Shown here in pieces: positions 7,709 through 63,961 of a DNA stretch of 64,000 bases. The stretch's first letter is position 1, and the number at the start of each line of letters is the position of its first letter. The DNA is taken from the NCBI RefSeq assembly GCF_000429645.1, contig NZ_AUCG01000004.1, forward strand, positions 1 through 64,000, in the 5' to 3' direction. Origin of the DNA: Niveispirillum irakense DSM 11586. Its GTDB lineage: Bacteria; Pseudomonadota; Alphaproteobacteria; Azospirillales; Azospirillaceae. Under the pieces are notes generated by a model, which was not told the origin of the DNA, did no database searches, and saw nothing but the letters and a program-made list of their open reading frames with translations. Position numbers and translations under genes: made by a program.

Positions 7709-9268
7709 ATGACGCAGAGTGCAGAAAATGTGCTCGACCATTTCGAGCTGTTCCGTGGTCCGGAATATCAGAGCATGCTGGCCAACAAGCGCGAGCTGTT
7801 CGAGAACCGGCGCGATCCCGCCGAGGTGGAGCGGGTGCGGGAATGGGCCAAGACGGCCGAATATCAGGAAAAGAACTTCGCCCGCGAGGCGCTGACCATC
7901 AATCCGGCCAAGGCCTGCCAGCCGCTGGGTGCCGTGTTCGCCGCGGTGGGGTTCGAGGGCACGCTGCCCTTTGTCCATGGATCGCAGGGCTGCGTTGCCT
8001 ATTACCGCAGCCATTTCTCCCGTCATTTCAAGGAACCGACCTCCTGCGTTTCCTCTTCCATGACGGAGGATGCGGCGGTGTTCGGCGGCCTGAACAACAT
8101 GATCGACGGGCTGGCCAATACCTATTCCATGTACAAGCCCAAGATGATCGCCGTTTCCACCACCTGCATGGCAGAAGTGATCGGCGACGACCTGAACGCC
8201 TTTATCAAGACGGCCAAGGAAAAGGGCTCCGTACCCGAGGCGTTCGACGTGCCGTTCGCCCATACACCGGCCTTTGTCGGCAGCCATGTCACGGGCTATG
8301 ACAATGCGTTGAAGGGCATTCTGGAACATTTCTGGGATGGCAAGGCCGGTACGGCACCCAAGGTGGAACGCCAGCCCAATGGCAAGATCAACTTCATCGG
8401 CGGCTTTGACGGCTACACTGTCGGCAATATCCGCGAGATCAAGCGCATCTTCGACCTGATGGGCGTGGAATACACCATCCTGGGCGATAATAGCGATGTC
8501 TGGGATACGCCGACGGATGGCGAGTTCCGCATGTATGACGGCGGCACGACGCTGGAGGATGCGGCCGCCGCCGTCCATGCCAAGGCAACCCTCTCCATGC
8601 AGGAATATTGCACCGAGAAGACGCTGCCCTTCATCGCCGGTCATGGCCATGAGACGGTTTCCTTCAATCACCCGGTCGGTGTGGCGGGCACCGACCGTTT
8701 CCTGATGGAAGTGGCCCGTCTGACCGGCACCGAAATCCCCGATGCGCTGGCGCGCGAGCGCGGCCGTCTGGTCGATGCTATCGCGGACAGCAGCTCCCAC
8801 ATCCATGGCAAGAAGTTCGCCCTGTATGGCGATCCCGACCTTTGCCTGGGGTTGGCCGCATTCCTGCTGGAACTGGGCGCGGAGCCGACGCATGTCCTGG
8901 CCACCAATGGCAGCAAGGGTTGGGCGGCGAAGATGCAGGAACTGTTCGACAGCTCGCCGTTTGGGAAGAACTGCAAGGCCTATCCGGGCCGCGACCTGTG
9001 GCACATGCGGTCGCTGCTGTTCACCGAGCCGGTGGATTACCTGATCGGCAATACCTACGGTAAATATCTGGAGCGTGACACGGGCACGCCGCTGATCCGC
9101 ATCGGCTTCCCGATCTTCGACCGGCACCACCACCACCGCTATCCCGTCTGGGGCTATCAGGGTGGCCTGAACGTGCTGGTGCGCATCCTGGACAAGATTT
9201 TCGACACGTTCGATGCCAACACCAACATCCCGTCGAAGAGCGATTACAGCTTCGACATCATCCGCTGA
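7709..9268 (+). CDS. nifK: Nitrogenase molybdenum-iron protein beta chain
   Basis: 519 residues from ATG 7709, preceded by GGAAGGG; an upstream TTG-initiated extension from 7658 has no family support. P-cluster ligands are in [30 protein letters not shown] and [13 protein letters not shown]. The C-terminus has the usual [19 protein letters not shown] segment. It pairs with NifD and carries half of each P-cluster. It is co-transcribed with nifHD. Confidence 0.99.
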
Positions 9269-9286
9269 TCCCGTCTCCCGCGCGTT

Positions 9287-9313
9287 GCGGCGTCCTCATT
9301 CAGGGGACGCCGC
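9287..9313 (+). other. nifK-nifE intercistronic hairpin
   Basis: GCGGCGTCC and GGACGCCGC make a 9-bp perfect stem with a 9-base loop between nifK and nifE. No T-run follows and no sigma-54 motif lies before nifE. It may attenuate or stabilise rather than end transcription. Confidence 0.45.
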
Positions 9314-9345
9314 TCACCATCCAAGCGACCGCCAGGAGAACCGGC

Positions 9346-10791
9346 ATGACCACCCTGTCCGCCACGATCCAGGAAGTGTTCAACGAACCGGCCTGCGGCA
9401 AGAACGCGGCCAAGTCGGAGAAGGAACGCAAGAAGGGCTGCACCAAGCAGCTTCAACCTGGCGGGGCGGCGGGGGGCTGTGCTTTTGACGGGGCCAAGAT
9501 CGCCCTGCAGCCCCTGACCGATGTTGCCCATCTTGTCCATGGGCCGATCGCGTGCGAGGGCAATTCCTGGGACAATCGCGGGGCCAAATCGTCGGGCCCC
9601 AGCCTGTGGCGCACGGGCTTTACCACCGACATCAACGAGACGGATATCGTCTTCGGCGGGGAAAAGCGGCTTTACAAGGCCATCCGCGAGATCATCGAGA
9701 AATACGACCCGCCGGCCGTCTTCGTCTATCAGACCTGTATCCCGGCCATGACCGGCGATGACATCAATGCCGTGGCCAAGGCCGCGTCAGCGAAGTTCGG
9801 CAAGCCCGTCATTCCCATCAACGCCCCCGGCTTTGTCGGCCCGAAGAACCTGGGCAACAAGCTGGCCGGCGAAGCCCTGCTGGACCATGTGATCGGCACG
9901 GTGGAGCCGGACTACACCACGCCCTACGACATCAACATCATCGGCGAATATAACCTGTCCGGCGAACTGTGGCAGGTGAAGCCGCTGTTGGATGCGCTGG
10001 GCATCCGCGTCCTGTCCTGTATCTCCGGCGACGGGCGCTACAGGGAGGTTGCGCAGTCGCATCGGGCCAAGGCGGCAATGATGGTCTGTTCCAAGGCCAT
10101 GATCAATGTCGCCCGCAAGATGGAGGAACGCTATGGCATCCCCTTCTTCGAGGGTTCTTTCTACGGTATCGGCGACACCAGCGACAGCCTGCGCGAGATC
10201 GCGCGGCTGCTGGTATCGCGCGGGGCGCCGGCCGAACTGCTGGACCGCACAGAGGCGCTGATCGCGCGGGAGGAGGCCAAGGCCTGGGCCAGCATTGCCC
10301 CCTTCAAGCCCCGGTTTGCCGGCAAGCGGGTGCTGCTGATCACCGGGGGCGTGAAATCCTGGTCGGTGGTGGCGGCCCTGCAGGAGGCGGGTCTGGAGAT
10401 TGCCGGCACCAGTGTCAAGAAATCCACCAAGGAAGACAAGGAACGCATCAAGGAACTGATGGGCGAAGACGCCCACATGATCGAGGACATGACCCCGCGC
10501 GAGATGTACCGCATGTTGAAGGACGCCAAGGCCGACATCATGCTGTCGGGCGGGCGGTCGCAGTTTGTGGCGCTGAAGGCGGCCATGCCCTGGCTGGACA
10601 TCAACCAGGAACGCCACCACGCCTATATGGGGTATGTCGGCATGGTCGATCTGCTGCGGGAGATCGCCAAGACCCTGTTCAACCCTGTCTGGGAACAGGT
10701 GCGCCGGCCCGCCCCCTGGGATGACCCGGCAGACAATTGGCAGGCCCGCGCCCTGGCGGAAGTTGTCGCCCCCCAATTGGCGGCGGAGTAG
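9346..10791 (+). CDS. nifE: FeMo-cofactor assembly scaffold, alpha subunit
   Basis: 481 residues, homologous to NifD. With NifN it forms the NifEN scaffold on which the NifB product is matured with Mo and homocitrate. Cluster-binding cysteines occur in KGCTKQLQPGGAAGGCAFDG, HGPIACEGNSWDNRG and YQTCIPAMTGDDINAV. The C-terminal LDINQERHHAYMGYVGM is typical of NifE. ATG 9346 follows CAGGAGAACCGGC. It ends six bases before nifN, consistent with one transcript from nifH through nifQ. Confidence 0.98.
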   Translation: MTTLSATIQEVFNEPACGKNAAKSEKERKKGCTKQLQPGGAAGGCAFDGAKIALQPLTDVAHLVHGPIACEGNSWDNRGAKSSGPSLWRTGFTTDINETDIVFGGEKRLYKAIREIIEKYDPPAVFVYQTCIPAMTGDDINAVAKAASAKFGKPVIPINAPGFVGPKNLGNKLAGEALLDHVIGTVEPDYTTPYDINIIGEYNLSGELWQVKPLLDALGIRVLSCISGDGRYREVAQSHRAKAAMMVCSKAMINVARKMEERYGIPFFEGSFYGIGDTSDSLREIARLLVSRGAPAELLDRTEALIAREEAKAWASIAPFKPRFAGKRVLLITGGVKSWSVVAALQEAGLEIAGTSVKKSTKEDKERIKELMGEDAHMIEDMTPREMYRMLKDAKADIMLSGGRSQFVALKAAMPWLDINQERHHAYMGYVGMVDLLREIAKTLFNPVWEQVRRPAPWDDPADNWQARALAEVVAPQLAAE

Positions 10792-56126: not shown

Positions 56127-56497
56127 AGGCAGAAAGCGCCGCGCAGCCTGGGCATGTATCGGAGCTCCCCCGCCGCCGCGGACGAGCCGCGGGATCGGAG
56201 AAGGCGGAAAGGGTCGAGGCGGAGCTTGCACAGGCGGCGCCATCCAGGGACGGCGGGCTGCGACGGCAGCGCGGCGCCGTTTGGGACCCTGCGGACATCA
56301 GGGACTACGAGGAGGAAACGTGACAGCGGACGCGGATACCGCGAGGCTCGAGCTTAACCGCGGCGGTCGATTGAAGCTCCCTTGGAAGAGCGAGAGTTCG
56401 AACGGCTCACCAGGGACCTGTTCGCCCGGCTGCTGGACAACGTGAGCGCGACTTGAACGGTCGTGCAGGTCACCGTAACGAGCCAGCACGCTGTCAT
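56127..56497. other. IS debris without an intact gene
   Basis: 371 bases of high-G+C sequence. Several frames are open but none matches a known family. A short plus-strand piece near 56380 (REFERLTRDLFARLLDNV) vaguely resembles part of an Hsp70 but is too short to call. Confidence 0.35.
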
Positions 56498-56720
56498 CGA
56501 ACTGCTCGCAGAAGATGCGCCGCCCGCACAGGACAGCATCGCACCGAAATCGACGCGCCACGATTGTCAACTCTACTTGCCGACCGCCAAGAGGCAGATC
56601 AGCGGGGCGCCGCATATATCTGCTTTGAACCCTCCGGCTTGGCCGCCCGCAGCCTGGACAAGTTGCTGAGGGATAGCGTGATCGAAGCCAAACTTGGACG
56701 CGATCCCCGGCAACCTTCAT
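56498..56720 (-). pseudogene. ISL3-family transposase, N-terminal fragment
   Basis: About 74 codons show the ISL3 zinc-finger start: PSATCPGCGRPSRRVQSRYM, RRPADLPLGGRQVELTIVAR, RRFRCDAVLCGRRIFCEQF. After that the similarity stops (the frame runs on to 56298 without family features), so most of the gene is deleted. Confidence 0.75.
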
Positions 56721-57396: not shown

Positions 57397-58578
57397 ATGT
57401 TCAATTTCGATACAAGTCGGGCTGAGTTCCGTTCATTGTACTTTGAAAAAAAGCCGTGGCTGAAACGTAAGTGTTTCGATCCATCTCCATTCGGTTGGTC
57501 TACGATCGACCAGGCGTTGGATTTTCAAGATCCAACCCGCGAATTGCTGAAGGTCCTTCACAAAGGGCGTGTCGAGCCGTCGCATTACGTCGAGGAATAC
57601 ATGGATGTCGGGCTCAGGCGCAGGCGTGTCCGCAAGGATCGCCTGTACCAGATGCTGGCATCGGGGGCCACGGTGGTGCTTAACCGCATCGAACTGGTAT
57701 CGACGCAGGTGCGCGACGTTTGCCTTGAAATCGGCCGGCTCGTCGGTGCGCAAACGACATCCAACGCATACGCGTGCCTTGGTGGCGAGCCTGCAACCAA
57801 CGTCCATTGGGATACGCACGATGTCTTCGTCGTCCAGATCGGAGGGCTGAAGCGTTGGCGCATTTATGAACCCACGCATCTCCTGCCGGTCAGCAACCAG
57901 GTGAGCAACGATCGGAAGGATGAGCTTCCGGCAGAGCCGGTGATGGACGAGATACTCGAGGCTGGTGACACCCTTTACGTTCCGCGGGGGTGGTGGCACC
58001 GCGTCGAGCCGGTGGAGGGGAGCGATACGCTGCATCTGACCGTGGCGATCCACGCACCGCTCATGCTCGACTATCTCGTGTGGGCATGCGCGTCGGTCCT
58101 GCCCGACCTGCTTGAGGTTCGGCACTCTCTCGTCGGGGAGGCGCATGACAGCCAGCGTGTCGCAGACGCGGTTGCGGCCGTCGGCGAGTTGCTGACGAGG
58201 CCGGAAACCGTCCAAGCGTTTCGCGAACGCTCCCAGCAGCGCGACCGCGTGGTGTCTCCCTTCAACATCGCGACATTGCTCGACCAGGCTAAGGATCCGC
58301 TTCCGATGTCTGCCAAGCTGATACTGAACTCCCGTCACGTTGATAGGGACCAGGCCCAGTTCGATATCAATGGAACCGCCATACCATTGCGCGGGGCGCA
58401 CAGGGCTGTCGCGGCCGCCCTATCCGCCGGCGTAAGCGTCAATATGGCGCAATTGCAGCGGCAGTTGCCCGAGTTTCCGGTAGAGACCCTGGGTGCGATC
58501 GTAAAGGACTTGGCGCGGGCGGACATCATTCAGATCACGTTTCCTGAGGAAACACGCAAGTCGTCGCGGACTGCCTGA
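57397..58578 (+). CDS. JmjC/cupin-type 2-oxoglutarate oxygenase (RoxA/YcfD-like)
   Basis: 393 residues. The Fe(II) facial triad is H137-x-D139 (NVHWDTHDVFVVQIGG) and H201 (DTLYVPRGWWHRVEP), as in ribosomal-oxygenase-type JmjC proteins that hydroxylate His or Arg side chains. N-terminal YFEKKPWLKRKCF is also typical. A C-terminal winged-helix-like part (LSAGVSVNMAQLQRQLPEFP) follows. Being the first gene of an operon for exporting a leader-bearing protein, it could hydroxylate that protein or a partner. ATG 57397 follows GCGAGGAAAG. It ends two bases before the adaptor gene. Confidence 0.85.
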   Translation: MFNFDTSRAEFRSLYFEKKPWLKRKCFDPSPFGWSTIDQALDFQDPTRELLKVLHKGRVEPSHYVEEYMDVGLRRRRVRKDRLYQMLASGATVVLNRIELVSTQVRDVCLEIGRLVGAQTTSNAYACLGGEPATNVHWDTHDVFVVQIGGLKRWRIYEPTHLLPVSNQVSNDRKDELPAEPVMDEILEAGDTLYVPRGWWHRVEPVEGSDTLHLTVAIHAPLMLDYLVWACASVLPDLLEVRHSLVGEAHDSQRVADAVAAVGELLTRPETVQAFRERSQQRDRVVSPFNIATLLDQAKDPLPMSAKLILNSRHVDRDQAQFDINGTAIPLRGAHRAVAAALSAGVSVNMAQLQRQLPEFPVETLGAIVKDLARADIIQITFPEETRKSSRTA

Positions 58579-58580
58579 CC

Positions 58581-59840
58581 ATGGCCGGTTCCCAGGCAGG
58601 CGTGCTGTTCCGCGAGCAGGTGGCCGAGGCGAGGCGGCAACGCCTCTACGGAGAGGTCGTGCTGACGGACAGCCGCATCAGCTCCAAGTTCGTTGCCGTA
58701 ATCGCCGTCGTAAGCGTAGGCCTCATCATCTGGGCGATGACCGCCACGTATCCCAGGACGGAAACGGTGCCGGGGGTCGTCGTAACGACCAAGCCCTCCG
58801 CGAAGGTCCTGGCACCTCGGGCAGGCGTCGCGGAGCGTGTCCATGTGCGGGAAAACGAGAGGGTTCACCAAGGGCAGCCGCTTGTCTTCATTGGGGTGGA
58901 GATACGGGATGAGGGCCATCGCGGTGCGGCCAATGACACGTTAACTGCGCTGGACAGCCAGAAAGACAGCGTCGGCGTCCAGATCGCAGCCGCGCGGAGC
59001 GTCATGGCCGCGGAACGGGACAAGCTTGGCCGGACCCTCGAAGCGGTCGCCATGGAGCAGCGATCCATCCGAGTCCAGATGAAGATCCAGGCGTCCATCG
59101 TAAAGTCGAAGACCGAGGAACTGGAGCGTATCCGCCCGACGGTCGAGAAGGGATACCTGAGCAGGTTGGAACTGGACCGCCGCGAACAGTCGCTCCTTAT
59201 CGAGCAGCAGCGGCTTGAGCAGTTCAACCAACAGCTGGTCCAGCTCGGCGTCCGGCGCCAAGACCTAGAGGCCCAACTTGAGCGGCTGCCTGCGGACGAA
59301 CGCCGGCAGTTGGCGGAGCTTGAGGGGCAGCTCAGTTCCATCTCCCAGCAGAAGTCGCGAACGAAAGTCGAGGTGGGCTATACCGTGGTGGCGCCGATCG
59401 AGGGTCGCGTTACCGCCCTCCAGGCTTCGCCTGGCAAAGGCATAGAGCCCGGCGTTCCGCTCATGGTGATACTGCCGGAAGACTCCGATTTCCATGTCAA
59501 CCTCTACGCTCCGTCCAGGGCGGTAGGTTTCATCAAGGTCGGGCAACCGGTACGCGTTTCCTATGACGCGTTCCCGTACAAGCAATTCGGAACGTTCAGT
59601 GGCGAGATTGAGTCCATTTCGGGCATCGCGTACGCGCCGGGCGAATTGGACACGCCGATCAAGGTCGGCGAACCGGTGTACGCAATCAAGGTGCGCCTCG
59701 CCAACGAGACCGCCACCGCTTTCGGGCGGTCCCTTCCGCTTCAATCGGGGATGACCCTGACGGGCAACATAATTCTTGAGCGCAGGTCGTTCCTCGACTG
59801 GCTGCTGCAGCCGCTCAACGCGGTCAGGAAACGCACATGA
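58581..59840 (+). CDS. HlyD-family membrane-fusion adaptor
   Basis: 419 residues: one transmembrane helix near residue 40-55 (FVAVIAVVSVGLIIWAM), a long coiled coil (residues 110-265, e.g. QSLLIEQQRLEQFNQQLVQL), and lipoyl/beta-barrel parts (VVAPIEGRVTALQASPGKGI, VRVSYDAFPYKQFGTFSGEI). This is the CvaA/HlyD adaptor that links an inner-membrane exporter to TolC. It is placed between the oxygenase and the peptidase-containing ABC transporter and overlaps the latter by four bases. Confidence 0.93.
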   Translation: MAGSQAGVLFREQVAEARRQRLYGEVVLTDSRISSKFVAVIAVVSVGLIIWAMTATYPRTETVPGVVVTTKPSAKVLAPRAGVAERVHVRENERVHQGQPLVFIGVEIRDEGHRGAANDTLTALDSQKDSVGVQIAAARSVMAAERDKLGRTLEAVAMEQRSIRVQMKIQASIVKSKTEELERIRPTVEKGYLSRLELDRREQSLLIEQQRLEQFNQQLVQLGVRRQDLEAQLERLPADERRQLAELEGQLSSISQQKSRTKVEVGYTVVAPIEGRVTALQASPGKGIEPGVPLMVILPEDSDFHVNLYAPSRAVGFIKVGQPVRVSYDAFPYKQFGTFSGEIESISGIAYAPGELDTPIKVGEPVYAIKVRLANETATAFGRSLPLQSGMTLTGNIILERRSFLDWLLQPLNAVRKRT

Positions 59841-62035
59841 CAAGCATGACCGACCTGTTCACGCCGGAGAAGTTCGTCCGCCAGGCCGAGGCGGGAGAGT
59901 GCGGCTTGGCCTGCCTCGCTATGATCTCGCGCCACTACGGTGACAAGGACGGGCTGTCGGCGTTGCGACGGCGCTATCCTCTCTCCGCGCGCGGAAGTTC
60001 GCTGAAGGACGTGATCGCCATCGCCGATCAGATGGGTTTCCACACCAGGGCGTTGAAGAGCGACATCCCGTCGCTGTCTAAACTGGGGCTGCCGGCGGTC
60101 CTGCATTGGGATCTCAACCATTACGTCGTGCTGGACAGGATACAGGTCCGGGCGAAAGGCACGACCTACTATATCCTGGACCCAGCCAGGGGTATGCGGA
60201 GCATTGCAGAAAGGGAAATCGCCGAGCATTTCACCGGCATCGTGTTGGAGTTGACGCCGAGCGCCGCTTTCACGCCCAACACCAGTCGCGCCCGGCTGCG
60301 GTTTGGCCAGCTATGGTCGAAGATACGCGGTCTCGGGCCGGCCTTGGGACGTATCCTCGTCCTGTCGGCAATCATGCAGGCAGTGGCGCTCGCGATACCA
60401 TTCTACATGCAGATAGCGATCGACACCGCCCTGCCAGGCTCCGATTTCGACCTGCTGAACATCATCGCGCTCGGCTTCGCCGGACTGCTGCTCTTGAACG
60501 CCGCCGCCCTGTGGGTTCGAAGCCGGCTCGTCCTCAGCCTCAGCAACAGCCTCGGCTTCCAGACGGCGGTCAACCTTTTCCGGCACACCCTGTTCCTGCC
60601 TACCGCCTGGTTCGAGAAGCGCCACCTGGGGGACATTTCATCCCGCTTCTCCTCCCTGCAGCCGATAACCGACCTCCTAAGCAAAGGCCTGGTGAGTTCC
60701 GCTGTGGACGGGATCCTGGCGATTTCGACCCTCTGTCTCATGGTGGTCTACTCGCCGCTTCTCGCCTCGCTGACCGTCGCCATCATCCTGGTCTATGCGG
60801 CGGTTAAGGCGGTGTTCTTCAAGTCAATGAAGTTCGCCAACGCCAACGTGCTGACCGCGCAGGCGCTGGAAACATCGGCGTTCATCGAGAATATGCGGGG
60901 CATCGCGGCGATCAAGACGTTCTGCCAGGAGGGCAACCGGCAGCGCCATTGGCAGAACCGGAAGGCGGAATTCGTCAATGGCAATCTCCGCCTCGGCCGG
61001 CTGACGGCAGGTTTTGAGACGACCAACGGCTTCGTCGTCGGAATCGAGAACATCGTCTTCATCTACATCGCGATCGGCATGGTGCTCAGCGGCGACATCT
61101 CGCTGGGCATGGTCTTCGCCTTCCAGGCCTACAAGCAGCACTTCATCGGTGCGACGACCCGCCTGGTCGACCAGGTCATGAGCTACCGGCTGCTCGACGT
61201 TCACCTCGAGCGCATATCCGACATCGCCCTGGAACCGGGGGAGCCCACGGAGAAGATGGCCGCGGCCGCGCCGTTGGGAACGATAGAGCTCCAGAACGTC
61301 AGCTTCTCCTACGGGTTCGGCCAGCCCTTCATCCTGAAGGGTGTATCGATGCGGATCGATCCTGGAAGGACCACCGTCCTTGTCGGCCCCTCCGGCGCCG
61401 GCAAGACAACCCTCTTCAAGATCCTCTGCGGTCTGCTCCAGCCGACTTCCGGCAGGATGCTCGTCGACGGCATTCCCCTGCAGGAATACGGAGTGCGGCG
61501 CTATCGCAGCCGGCTGGGCGTCGTAAGCCAGGATGACATCCTTTTCAGCGGCTCCCTGGCGGAGAACATCGCCTTCTTCGATCCGGACTACGACATCGAA
61601 CGTGTTGTCGGGTGTTGCCGGCAGGCGTCTATCCATGACGACATACTGAAGATGCCGATGAAGTACGAGACGTCGGTCGGGGACATGGGATCGAACCTTT
61701 CCGGTGGCCAGAAGCAACGCATCCTCCTGGCACGTGCACTGTACCAGAGGCCCGACATGCTGATGCTCGACGAAGGCACGGCGCACCTGGATGTCCGCAC
61801 CGAGGCGCGGGTCGTCGATGCGATCAAGCAGCTCGGTGGAACCCGCCTGCTTGTCGCCCATAGGCCGCAGACGATCGAGACGGCCGACATCGTCTACCAA
61901 ATCGTCGACGGCCATGCGCGTCGACTGGAGTTCGTACCCGATGCCGGGCAGGCGAAGGCGGCAGAACCTTCCATGCGCCTGTCCAAGCATGCGGTCCCGG
62001 ACAGTCCGGGGCCGGAGTTGACGTCCACAAACTAG
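59837..62035 (+). CDS. Peptidase-containing ABC exporter (C39 domain)
   Basis: 732 residues. The N-terminal C39 peptidase has an intact active site: Q16 and C22 (VRQAEAGECGLACLAM), H95 (HWDLNHYVVLD) and D115 (YYILDPARG). Transmembrane helices span about residues 165-440. The ATPase has Walker A GPSGAGKTT, signature NLSGGQKQR and Walker B MLMLDEGTAHLD. It should cut double-glycine leaders and export the cargo through TolC. The cargo encoded next (62060) has such a leader, so exporter and substrate match. Confidence 0.96.
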   Translation: MTSMTDLFTPEKFVRQAEAGECGLACLAMISRHYGDKDGLSALRRRYPLSARGSSLKDVIAIADQMGFHTRALKSDIPSLSKLGLPAVLHWDLNHYVVLDRIQVRAKGTTYYILDPARGMRSIAEREIAEHFTGIVLELTPSAAFTPNTSRARLRFGQLWSKIRGLGPALGRILVLSAIMQAVALAIPFYMQIAIDTALPGSDFDLLNIIALGFAGLLLLNAAALWVRSRLVLSLSNSLGFQTAVNLFRHTLFLPTAWFEKRHLGDISSRFSSLQPITDLLSKGLVSSAVDGILAISTLCLMVVYSPLLASLTVAIILVYAAVKAVFFKSMKFANANVLTAQALETSAFIENMRGIAAIKTFCQEGNRQRHWQNRKAEFVNGNLRLGRLTAGFETTNGFVVGIENIVFIYIAIGMVLSGDISLGMVFAFQAYKQHFIGATTRLVDQVMSYRLLDVHLERISDIALEPGEPTEKMAAAAPLGTIELQNVSFSYGFGQPFILKGVSMRIDPGRTTVLVGPSGAGKTTLFKILCGLLQPTSGRMLVDGIPLQEYGVRRYRSRLGVVSQDDILFSGSLAENIAFFDPDYDIERVVGCCRQASIHDDILKMPMKYETSVGDMGSNLSGGQKQRILLARALYQRPDMLMLDEGTAHLDVRTEARVVDAIKQLGGTRLLVAHRPQTIETADIVYQIVDGHARRLEFVPDAGQAKAAEPSMRLSKHAVPDSPGPELTSTN

Positions 62036-62059
62036 AGCGAAAACTTAAGGAGAGATGAA

Positions 62060-62674
62060 ATGAGGCATTTCAGTGGTGAGTTCGAGGGTATCCGCTTGCT
62101 CATGGGCGACGAACTCGAGCAGATCGCGGGCGGCGAGGGCGAGGATACCGATGACCTGATACCGTTCGACGAATGCCAGGATCGGCGATCCGATGGGCTT
62201 GCACAGGCCCTGGGAAACCGGATAGCCAACGCGCCGGATACAGCAAACATCGAATACGGTGCAGTTATATTTCGGAATGCCGACGGCACATTGGGCCAAA
62301 CGAGAATGCTGATAGGAAATTCATCAGGCGTTCCCGATTTCAACTCCTCCCCCCAGAGCCTTGGGTTCAGTAGTTGGACACAGGTCGTTGGTATTCTCCA
62401 TAGCCACCCTACTGTACATAGTAGCGGTGCTCAAATCACACCTGATTGGAATCACGATAAGCCTAGTGGAAATGATTGGCAATACATGGATTGGATTGCA
62501 TCTCAGTCAGGAGTTGATACTAACAATCTTAGGCAGTACATTTATCATGCCGGACAAATGAATGAATATTATTATAATGACAACAATCAAACTCAATGGT
62601 CTCCCGACAATCGATGGAAGTTTTCGGTGAAGTCGGACAGCTATCAACCCAATGCAACGTGCCCTGAAAACTGA
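62060..62674 (+). CDS. Double-glycine-leader protein with a JAMM metalloprotease domain
   Basis: 204 residues. The leader ends LLMGDELEQIAGG (Gly24-Gly25), just what a C39 exporter cuts, leaving about 179 residues. The mature part carries a full JAMM set: Glu65 (NIEYGAVIF), H114-S-H116-P (GILHSHPT) and Ser136-x2-Asp139 (KPSGNDW). The surrounding pattern is like DUF4329/JAB toxin domains. Cys39 and Cys201 could form a disulfide after export. It is probably a secreted zinc-dependent effector or bacteriocin. AAGGAGAG precedes ATG 62060. The 3' third (from about 62400) is markedly AT-richer than the rest of the operon. Confidence 0.85.
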   Translation: MRHFSGEFEGIRLLMGDELEQIAGGEGEDTDDLIPFDECQDRRSDGLAQALGNRIANAPDTANIEYGAVIFRNADGTLGQTRMLIGNSSGVPDFNSSPQSLGFSSWTQVVGILHSHPTVHSSGAQITPDWNHDKPSGNDWQYMDWIASQSGVDTNNLRQYIYHAGQMNEYYYNDNNQTQWSPDNRWKFSVKSDSYQPNATCPEN

Positions 62675-62682
62675 GGTGACCT

Positions 62683-63093
62683 ATGTTGGCTTACATGACT
62701 GCGCTTGTGCTTGCCAGCGCCGCTGCAACGCCGATTGATGGTAAGGGAGATGAACAGGGGCCTCCCCCTTTCGTAGAACTCGCACTTCCTCGGAGTGTCA
62801 CACGGACTGTGTCCGCACTATGCGAAGATCGGCAAATTATTGTTCAGCTCGAGGAGAGCCTGGATTCTGTAAGAGTAATATCTTACAGCGGGGCCTCCGG
62901 AATAGCCAGTGTCGATGAATTGAAAAAATGGACAAAGCAGATGGAGGCACTCAGCAATGTATACGGAGTTTTCATCACATGTCATGGCAAAATTGACAAT
63001 GTAATGATTACTGGAACCGGCCAATCTGGTGCTCCGGGCCAATCGCGTGTCGTCGCTATTTGGAATGAGGGGAAAATGCGGTTTACGCCGTAG
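62683..63093 (+). CDS. Small exported protein, candidate immunity factor
   Basis: 136 residues with an N-terminal signal peptide (MLAYMTALVLASAAATPIDG) and two cysteines (Cys47, Cys100) that could pair in the periplasm. I do not recognise a family. It begins eight bases after the JAMM protein with GAGGTG upstream, so the two are made together. A small periplasmic protein next to a secreted peptidase is typical of immunity proteins or inhibitors; that role is inferred from position alone. Confidence 0.7.
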   Translation: MLAYMTALVLASAAATPIDGKGDEQGPPPFVELALPRSVTRTVSALCEDRQIIVQLEESLDSVRVISYSGASGIASVDELKKWTKQMEALSNVYGVFITCHGKIDNVMITGTGQSGAPGQSRVVAIWNEGKMRFTP

Positions 63094-63137: not shown

Positions 63138-63769
63138 AACTATTCGAGCTTCTTTCATTTGGGAATATTCTGTAAGAAAAAGGCATTTTAAATCCAAAGC
63201 AATCAAAGCCATGCCCCAAGGAGCCAGGAGGCGCTGTTCTTCGGTTCGTTGCTCGATCGGGGTGCATGTACCGCCCGGGAGGTCCTGTCCATGACGCCGG
63301 AAGGCCAATTCCGGCTCCGATATGAAATGCGGGCCCTGTCTATGGGATCCCGCTACGGCTATTCGTTTGGAGAAACGGTTCTGAACAGACCAAGCGACCT
63401 GGCCTTCAATCTCATACGGACGCCTGACGTCTTGACCGCGGCTTTCCATAGGGGTGGGGAAGGAGGGTATTGGGTTGTGCGTGAAGTGCGCTCCAGCCGT
63501 CTCCCCGCCCCGTAACCATCACCAAGTGGTCGATACCCTTCGGGTCCATCGCTGTCCGCTCCTCTCACCCGACAATCTATGCCTAGTCGAGGGCCGGGAC
63601 AAGGTACCGCCAACCGGTCCCGGCGGTGCTGTCGCTGGCGGGATAAAACTCTCCAGAAGTGGCGAATGAAAAGTCCCCAGTTTTGGCAGAGGGCAAGGCC
63701 CCGGGGGCGTGCCCCCTGGACCTTGCGGCCATCTCTACGCCATCCTGTCTCCCGCTGTCTGCGGGGAGG
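63138..63769. other. IS-end region with an unclassified reading frame
   Basis: 632 bases. A plus-strand frame at 63249-63515 (FRLRYEMRALSMGSRYGYSF, then SDLAFNLIRTPDVLTAAFH) is open for 88 codons but has no recognised family and looks like a fragment. From about 63580 the sequence looks like the left end of the IS21-type element that follows (repeats of CGGGA and GGGCAAGGCCCCGGGGG). Confidence 0.4.
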
Positions 63770-63961
63770 ATGCCGGTGATTAAGCTTGGCGACCTTGTCA
63801 TGATCCTGGACCTTGCCCGCCAAGGGCTATCCGTTTCCGCCATCGCCCGACGTACCGGTTTCGACCGCAAGACCGTGCGCCGGCATATAGAGCGTGGGCT
63901 GGAGCCACCCGCCTACACACCCCGCCCGCCGAGGCCGAACAACGCTATCATGACACCGTAA
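63770..63961 (+). pseudogene. istA: IS21-family IstA, N-terminal fragment
   Basis: 63 codons from ATG 63770 with the IstA helix-turn-helix: MPVIKLGDLVMILDLARQGL, SVSAIARRTGFDRKTVRRHI. After RGLEPPAYTPRPPRP the sequence changes abruptly (NNAIMTP, stop), so another insertion or deletion has cut the gene. GGGGAGG precedes the start. Confidence 0.8.

Follow-up and report, generated by a model that had tools for sequence, protein, structure and literature searches.

A double-glycine-leadered JAMM protein encoded with its own type I exporter and a putative periplasmic immunity protein in Niveispirillum irakense: a predicted small enzymatic bacteriocin

Class II microcins such as MccV are small non-enzymatic peptides, and small peptides are the known cargo of the Gram-negative type I systems that cleave leaders. 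Among the characterised type I systems of alphaproteobacteria the nearest is Cdz of Caulobacter crescentus, which is contact-dependent, exports two glycine-zipper toxins of 84-86 aa and includes a small transmembrane immunity protein (PMC5380434). Colicin M is a small enzymatic bacteriocin that works in the periplasm and is countered by a periplasm-facing immunity protein; it has a lipid II hydrolase domain and a TonB box, is plasmid-encoded and has no known dedicated exporter (PMC8469651). JAB domains of the Tox-JAB-2/DUF4329 type (PF14220) serve as the toxin domains of various polymorphic toxins, among them those of the Rhs and T6SS kinds (PMC3482391; PMC10469887), and a nuclease function has been proposed for Tox-JAB-1, Tox-JAB-2 and RadC (PMC3482391). 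We found no known substrate of the JAB toxins, and our survey of the open-access literature found no description of a small leadered JAMM toxin exported by a type I system.

We analyzed a window of 64,000 nucleotides from N. irakense DSM 11586 (contig NZ_AUCG01000004.1, positions 1 to 64,000), which holds a five-gene operon whose fourth gene encodes a small JAMM protein. The system combines known pieces, the JAB domain of large polymorphic toxins and a type I exporter of the bacteriocin kind. With Tox-JAB-2/DUF4329 toxins it shares the JAB fold, the E, HxH and D residues and a partner gene that comes after the toxin gene; however, their domains are C-terminal in large proteins, whereas the window domain is free and has a double-glycine leader and a type I exporter, its protein scores under the Pfam cut-off, and its partner is exported and differs from the listed Imm-NTF2 family 2. 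The likeness to Cdz lies in an alphaproteobacterial ABC protein and periplasmic adaptor for toxin export and in the clustering of an immunity gene with them, but the window encodes one predicted enzyme of 179 aa with a soluble exported partner and no glycine-zipper pair. Class II microcins also have a double-glycine leader, a C39 exporter, an HlyD adaptor and an adjacent immunity gene, yet the mature window protein has at least about twice their size and a predicted metallohydrolase fold. Unlike colicin M, it has an unrelated catalytic domain (the ColM domain has no Pfam match in it) and lacks a TonB box. The product of the operon is, in our view, likely to be a small enzymatic bacteriocin that is exported, attacks target cells in their periplasm and has the partner as its immunity protein.

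The five genes are co-directional and separated by tiny gaps, and encode in order a JmjC oxygenase, an HlyD adaptor, a C39-ABC exporter, the JAMM protein and its partner. The first gene (57397..58578, + strand) encodes a JmjC/cupin-type 2-oxoglutarate oxygenase of 393 aa (Pfam JmjC_2, E=6.3e-27; Cupin_8, E=2.2e-9) and ends 2 nt before the gene of an HlyD-type periplasmic adaptor of 419 aa (58581..59840, +; Pfam HlyD_3, E=3.9e-17). The adaptor also matches TIGR01843 type_I_hlyD at E=6.7e-42, yet under the cut-off of that model. The third gene (59837..62035, +), which overlaps the second by 4 nt, encodes a peptidase-containing ABC exporter of 732 aa with C39 peptidase, membrane and ATPase domains (Pfam Peptidase_C39, E=4.1e-30; ABC_membrane, 1.1e-33; ABC_tran, 5.5e-33). 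Its catalytic cysteine is present (C22 in AGECGLACLAM), as are the NHYVVLD and LDPA motifs. The JAMM gene starts 24 nt 3' of the exporter gene, and the operon showed no further leadered cargo, which leaves the JAMM protein as the single one. The double-glycine leader, the C39-peptidase exporter and the HlyD adaptor are thus all found within one operon, which agrees with the suggestion of an earlier note on this DNA that the leadered JAMM protein has its own exporter. The operon is flanked by a fragment of an ISL3-family transposase upstream (56298..56720, - strand; Pfam Zn_ribbon_ISL3, E=4.4e-12) and by a transposase-like helix-turn-helix fragment downstream (63659..63961, +; Pfam HTH_29, E=1.5e-8, HTH_38 and HTH_23).

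Exporters of the same family of bacteria that are 40-46% identical to the window exporter adjoin bacteriocin-like peptides with double-glycine leaders, and for this reason we place the window exporter among bacteriocin exporters. The peptides beside these related exporters (loci L032, L035, L036, L043 and others) are hydrophobic and glycine-rich, number one or two per locus and look Cdz-like. The JmjC oxygenase is a candidate modifier of the exported product. Some of its relatives in the same family of bacteria (about 28% identity) are located in RiPP-like clusters with asparagine synthase and PqqD, suggesting peptide hydroxylation; none was found in any other toxin or exporter locus. Two of the relatives (L106, 881-2056; L103, 893-2056) lie near genes for asparagine synthase, PqqD and HPr-kinase-like proteins, in RiPP (lasso-like) clusters.

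The JAMM gene occupies positions 62060-62674 of the + strand and encodes 204 aa, as the earlier note had it. The ATG at 62060 is supported as the start by a ribosome-binding site, AAGGAG, located 7 nt 5' of it (62047-62052, +). The leader of 25 aa, MRHFSGEFEGIRLLMGDELEQIAGG, is encoded by 62060..62134 (+), with G25 as its last residue. The usual pattern LSxxELxxIxGG is matched by L at -12, E at -8, L at -7, I at -4 and GG at -2/-1; the exception is -11, where M replaces S. The leader recognized by the first reading is thus canonical in pattern, and it is also rare, since the stringent pattern is matched by 7/743 mechanically called genes from the window and the fetched loci, a set in which locus L002 is a partial duplicate of the window. 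This rarity makes a chance leader directly 3' of a C39 exporter unlikely.

The mature protein comprises 179 aa plus the stop (62135..62674, +). The previously assigned residues E65 (62252-62254), H114 (62399-62401) and H116 (62405-62407), which form H114-S-H116-P, and D139 (62474-62476) of S136-x2-D139 are all correctly placed on the + strand, and these four are invariant in 14/14 aligned sequences, secreted DUF4329 proteins included. S136 (62465-62467, +) is not strictly conserved, being N in Peiella and H in L072; hence, of the proposed catalytic set, E, HxH and D are kept in homologues but the serine only partly. The protein contains exactly two cysteines, C39 and C201. Neither a TonB-box-like motif nor a receptor-binding region is evident in it, and a TonB box, which we had considered, was dropped because the motif is absent.

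Structure prediction and fold comparison, which had been proposed as a check, recovered a JAB/JAMM fold. The AlphaFold2 model, built from five sequences, has a mean pLDDT of 74.7, with block means of about 86-93 for residues 41-120 and 79-91 for residues 131-170, and a disordered leader. Its best PDB match in Foldseek is RadC (probability 1.00, E=1.1e-3), followed by CSN5, Rpn11 and AMSH and, further down, the bacterial BubCD complex and Cap3. The JAMM protein is thus predicted by AlphaFold2 and Foldseek to belong to the JAB/JAMM fold class. Its best viral matches include phage JAB and RadC-like proteins. The Pfam DUF4329 model matches at E=1.2e-4 and 22.4 bits, below the gathering cut-off of 28.6, and a profile-profile comparison with secreted DUF4329 proteins gave E=5e-4 with a probability of only 31%. 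As judged by these scores, the JAMM protein is a remote relative of DUF4329/Tox-JAB-2 and not a formal member. A sequence search of the PDB returned only chance matches, none of them to a relevant solved structure, and NCBIfam, PHROGs and PADLOC gave no significant match for either the JAMM protein or its partner.

The fifth gene (62683..63093, +) starts 8 nt after the JAMM stop codon and encodes a putative periplasmic immunity protein of 136 aa with a signal-peptide-like N-terminus, which lacks a basic residue at its start, and two conserved cysteines, C47 and C100. Its AlphaFold2 model (mean pLDDT 81.7) is mostly beta with one helix and has no significant PDB match. Relatives among the alpha- and gammaproteobacteria repeat this layout in no fewer than eight other loci, each with a JAMM gene followed by a small partner that has an export signal (signal peptide or lipobox) and two cysteines. 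BLASTP linked the window partner to those beside the JAMM genes of L065 (E=3e-13), L055 (1e-11) and L071 (2e-5); the link by sequence is significant in these three loci and weak elsewhere, and in L066 and L074 the similarity is too weak for significance while the position and the two-cysteine pattern are kept. When a profile of four partners was run against all open reading frames of the fetched loci, the top three unseen matches, two genes in L068 and one in L056, all adjoin JAMM genes, although their E-values (0.015-0.027) are weak.

Two or more partner-like genes stand in tandem in L071, L072, L068 and L056, an arrangement that by analogy resembles poly-immunity loci. The layout as a whole is that expected of a toxin with a rapidly diverging periplasmic immunity protein, a predicted role. 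This co-occurring exported partner is the strongest evidence for the toxin reading; neither it nor the JmjC gene figured in the earlier note. Another arrangement was observed in L069 of Caulobacteraceae genome G937, where two close JAMM genes (8677-9462 and 10056-10538) are each followed by a partner-like gene.

Relatives of the JAMM protein were found in none of the other 81 genomes searched within the family of N. irakense, and single-sequence searches with the protein itself (P0001) gave no direct relatives in genome contigs, plasmids or viral contigs. Most of the relatives belong to group f63, which we take to be Caulobacteraceae, partly from its genera: Peiella sedimenti (43% identity), a Brevundimonas MAG (37%) and further genomes of the same genus group, another MAG of the family (33%) and G1017 of another genus (31%). 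Beyond this group, relatives are present in the gammaproteobacterium Arenimonas composti (30%) and, at locus L056, in G819 of a different alphaproteobacterial family. The L066 search of family f13 gave mainly glycine-rich chance matches, G819 excepted. The cysteine pair is conserved in 9/9 intact family members, with one cysteine 69-83 residues before HxH and the other no more than 5 residues from the C-terminus, which fits a disulfide formed outside the cytoplasm.

A double-glycine leader is present on three JAMM genes, those of the window, L066 and L056. In L066 (G1017), the leader MRELTLAEFDLIAGG, the JAMM domain and the partner are accompanied by nearby divergent HlyD/C39 genes, the exporter being 41% identical. 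As read from its genes, L066 is an independent and complete repeat of the leader-JAMM-partner-exporter architecture in another family. In L056 the leader is MRELTSAEIAMVSGG, the gene is broken by an in-frame TGA, and no exporter gene adjoins it; a C39-like gene elsewhere in the G819 genome has DSSLACF where ECGLACLAM is expected and seems to be without the catalytic cysteine. The leadered L056 gene (7846-8580) keeps two partner-like genes, as in a locus that would have lost its toxin and kept its immunity. A correlation of leader with exporter (3/3, P=0.03) was dropped because the G819 C39-like protein apparently lacks the catalytic cysteine and the toxin gene of this genome contains the TGA.

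The leader had been expected to recur in homologues, and it does so in L066 and, in stop-broken form, in L056, but it is missing in most relatives and is not a family trait. The Arenimonas protein has a Sec signal, and the other Caulobacteraceae proteins have neither leader nor Sec signal. A C39 gene is absent in 6/9 relative genomes and in 6/7 of the leaderless ones. With most relatives leaderless and C39 genes missing from six of the nine genomes, the putative toxin module is not tied to C39 export. The putative toxin and its partner form a single module, with the leader as one among several predicted trafficking modules. TonB-box-like motifs (DGITVTGNP, DEIVVTANPR, ILVTGQRRQ, DDIEVVGG, GDIVVIG, GVTIIA) were observed in the N-terminal parts of JAMM proteins of L071 (8665-9501), L068 (8327-9235), L070 (8662-9351), L073 (8677-9492), L056 (7846-8118) and L066 (8888-9553), as if these relatives might enter cells in the manner of TonB-dependent bacteriocins; the enrichment is only a lead, the pattern having been written after the sequences were seen.

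Base composition changes within the JAMM gene. GC3 is 0.83 in the exporter gene and 0.72 in JAMM codons 1-60, and falls to 0.43 in codons 61-204 and 0.48 in the partner gene (Fisher P=2e-4 for the drop inside the JAMM gene), suggesting that a foreign cassette of putative toxin and immunity genes was joined behind a native leader. It can thus be speculated that these toxins are modular, with the double-glycine leader as an exchangeable trafficking module and a periplasm-acting JAMM domain with its exported immunity protein recombined behind the leader of a bacteriocin exporter, a view that we hold tentatively and at somewhat less than even confidence. If it is true, relatives with TonB-box-like N-termini would enter cells like colicins.

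The way in which the system might work can be outlined as follows. The C39 domain of the neighbouring exporter would recognize the leader of the precursor and cleave it behind G25. The mature protein would leave the cell by way of HlyD and a TolC-type channel whose gene lies elsewhere; once it is outside, its residues C39 and C201 are probably joined by a disulfide. The JmjC enzyme is a possible hydroxylase of the toxin. The 179-residue protein would then enter the periplasm of sensitive relatives, where a zinc centre formed by H114, H116 and D139, with E65 as general acid/base, would hydrolyse its target, the likeliest being an amide bond of some envelope component, while the exported partner (62683-63093) would protect the producer. 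Together, the exported partner and the cysteine pair point to an extracytoplasmic hydrolase in this JAMM branch.

Some of the evidence can be read in other ways. RadC is the closest solved fold, and Tox-JAB-2 overlaps DUF4329 (PMC3482391), the best Pfam match of the JAMM protein, so that the protein could be a polymorphic-toxin JAB domain that reaches the cytoplasm of the target and acts there as a nuclease. However, the signal peptide or lipobox of the partners implies protection outside the cytoplasm, and the conservation of the two cysteines fits a compartment that is oxidising. Immunity proteins against nucleases are normally cytoplasmic. We regard this reading as unlikely, and the export of the partner disfavours the nuclease proposal for this JAMM branch. 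The deubiquitinase AMSH and the related Rpn11 and CSN5 among the fold matches would suit an effector against eukaryotes (amoebae, fungi or plant roots), a secreted deubiquitinase-like JAMM protease with the partner as a chaperone or accessory factor, but tandem divergent partners look like immunity proteins rather than chaperones, they are exported and not cytoplasmic, and bacteriocin-like peptides accompany the relatives of the exporter; we give this explanation very little weight.

It is also conceivable, though quite improbable, that the protein is no toxin but a protease with a processing or house-keeping role towards a peptide of the JmjC/exporter operon. The JmjC relatives in RiPP-like clusters fit such a role, and an exported protease could mature another product; yet the leader is on the JAMM protein itself, a second leadered cargo was not seen in the operon, and some relatives have a partner but neither an exporter nor a JmjC gene close by. 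A decaying or fortuitous fusion, in which an IS-borne islet holds leader and toxin pieces that no longer function, would accommodate the IS fragments on both sides of the operon, the composition break, the lack of an orthologue in the family and the stop in L056. This seems very unlikely to us, as no damage is seen in the reading frame, ribosome sites, catalytic residues or partner gene and L066, from another family, has the same fused architecture in intact form. The preferred reading is that of an enzymatic bacteriocin with a periplasmic target, a probable weapon of its producer against competing bacteria. The bacteriocin-type effector put forward earlier is likely, given the leader, its own C39/HlyD exporter and the co-occurring exported partner. 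The sequence favours neither the contact-independent action suggested in the earlier note nor the contact dependence of Cdz.

If this is true, a folded metalloenzyme as cargo would widen the scope of the leader-cleaving exporters and of the term microcin. The JAB toxins would gain a small and tractable member with a natural exporter and a predicted periplasmic immunity protein, with which their target and mechanism become directly testable. Finally, the same genome (G000) carries two further C39 genes on contig C14 (L118, 5000-24000). This locus is of the nitrile-hydratase-leader (NHLP) type and also encodes a precursor-like peptide that contains LLDLASGG.
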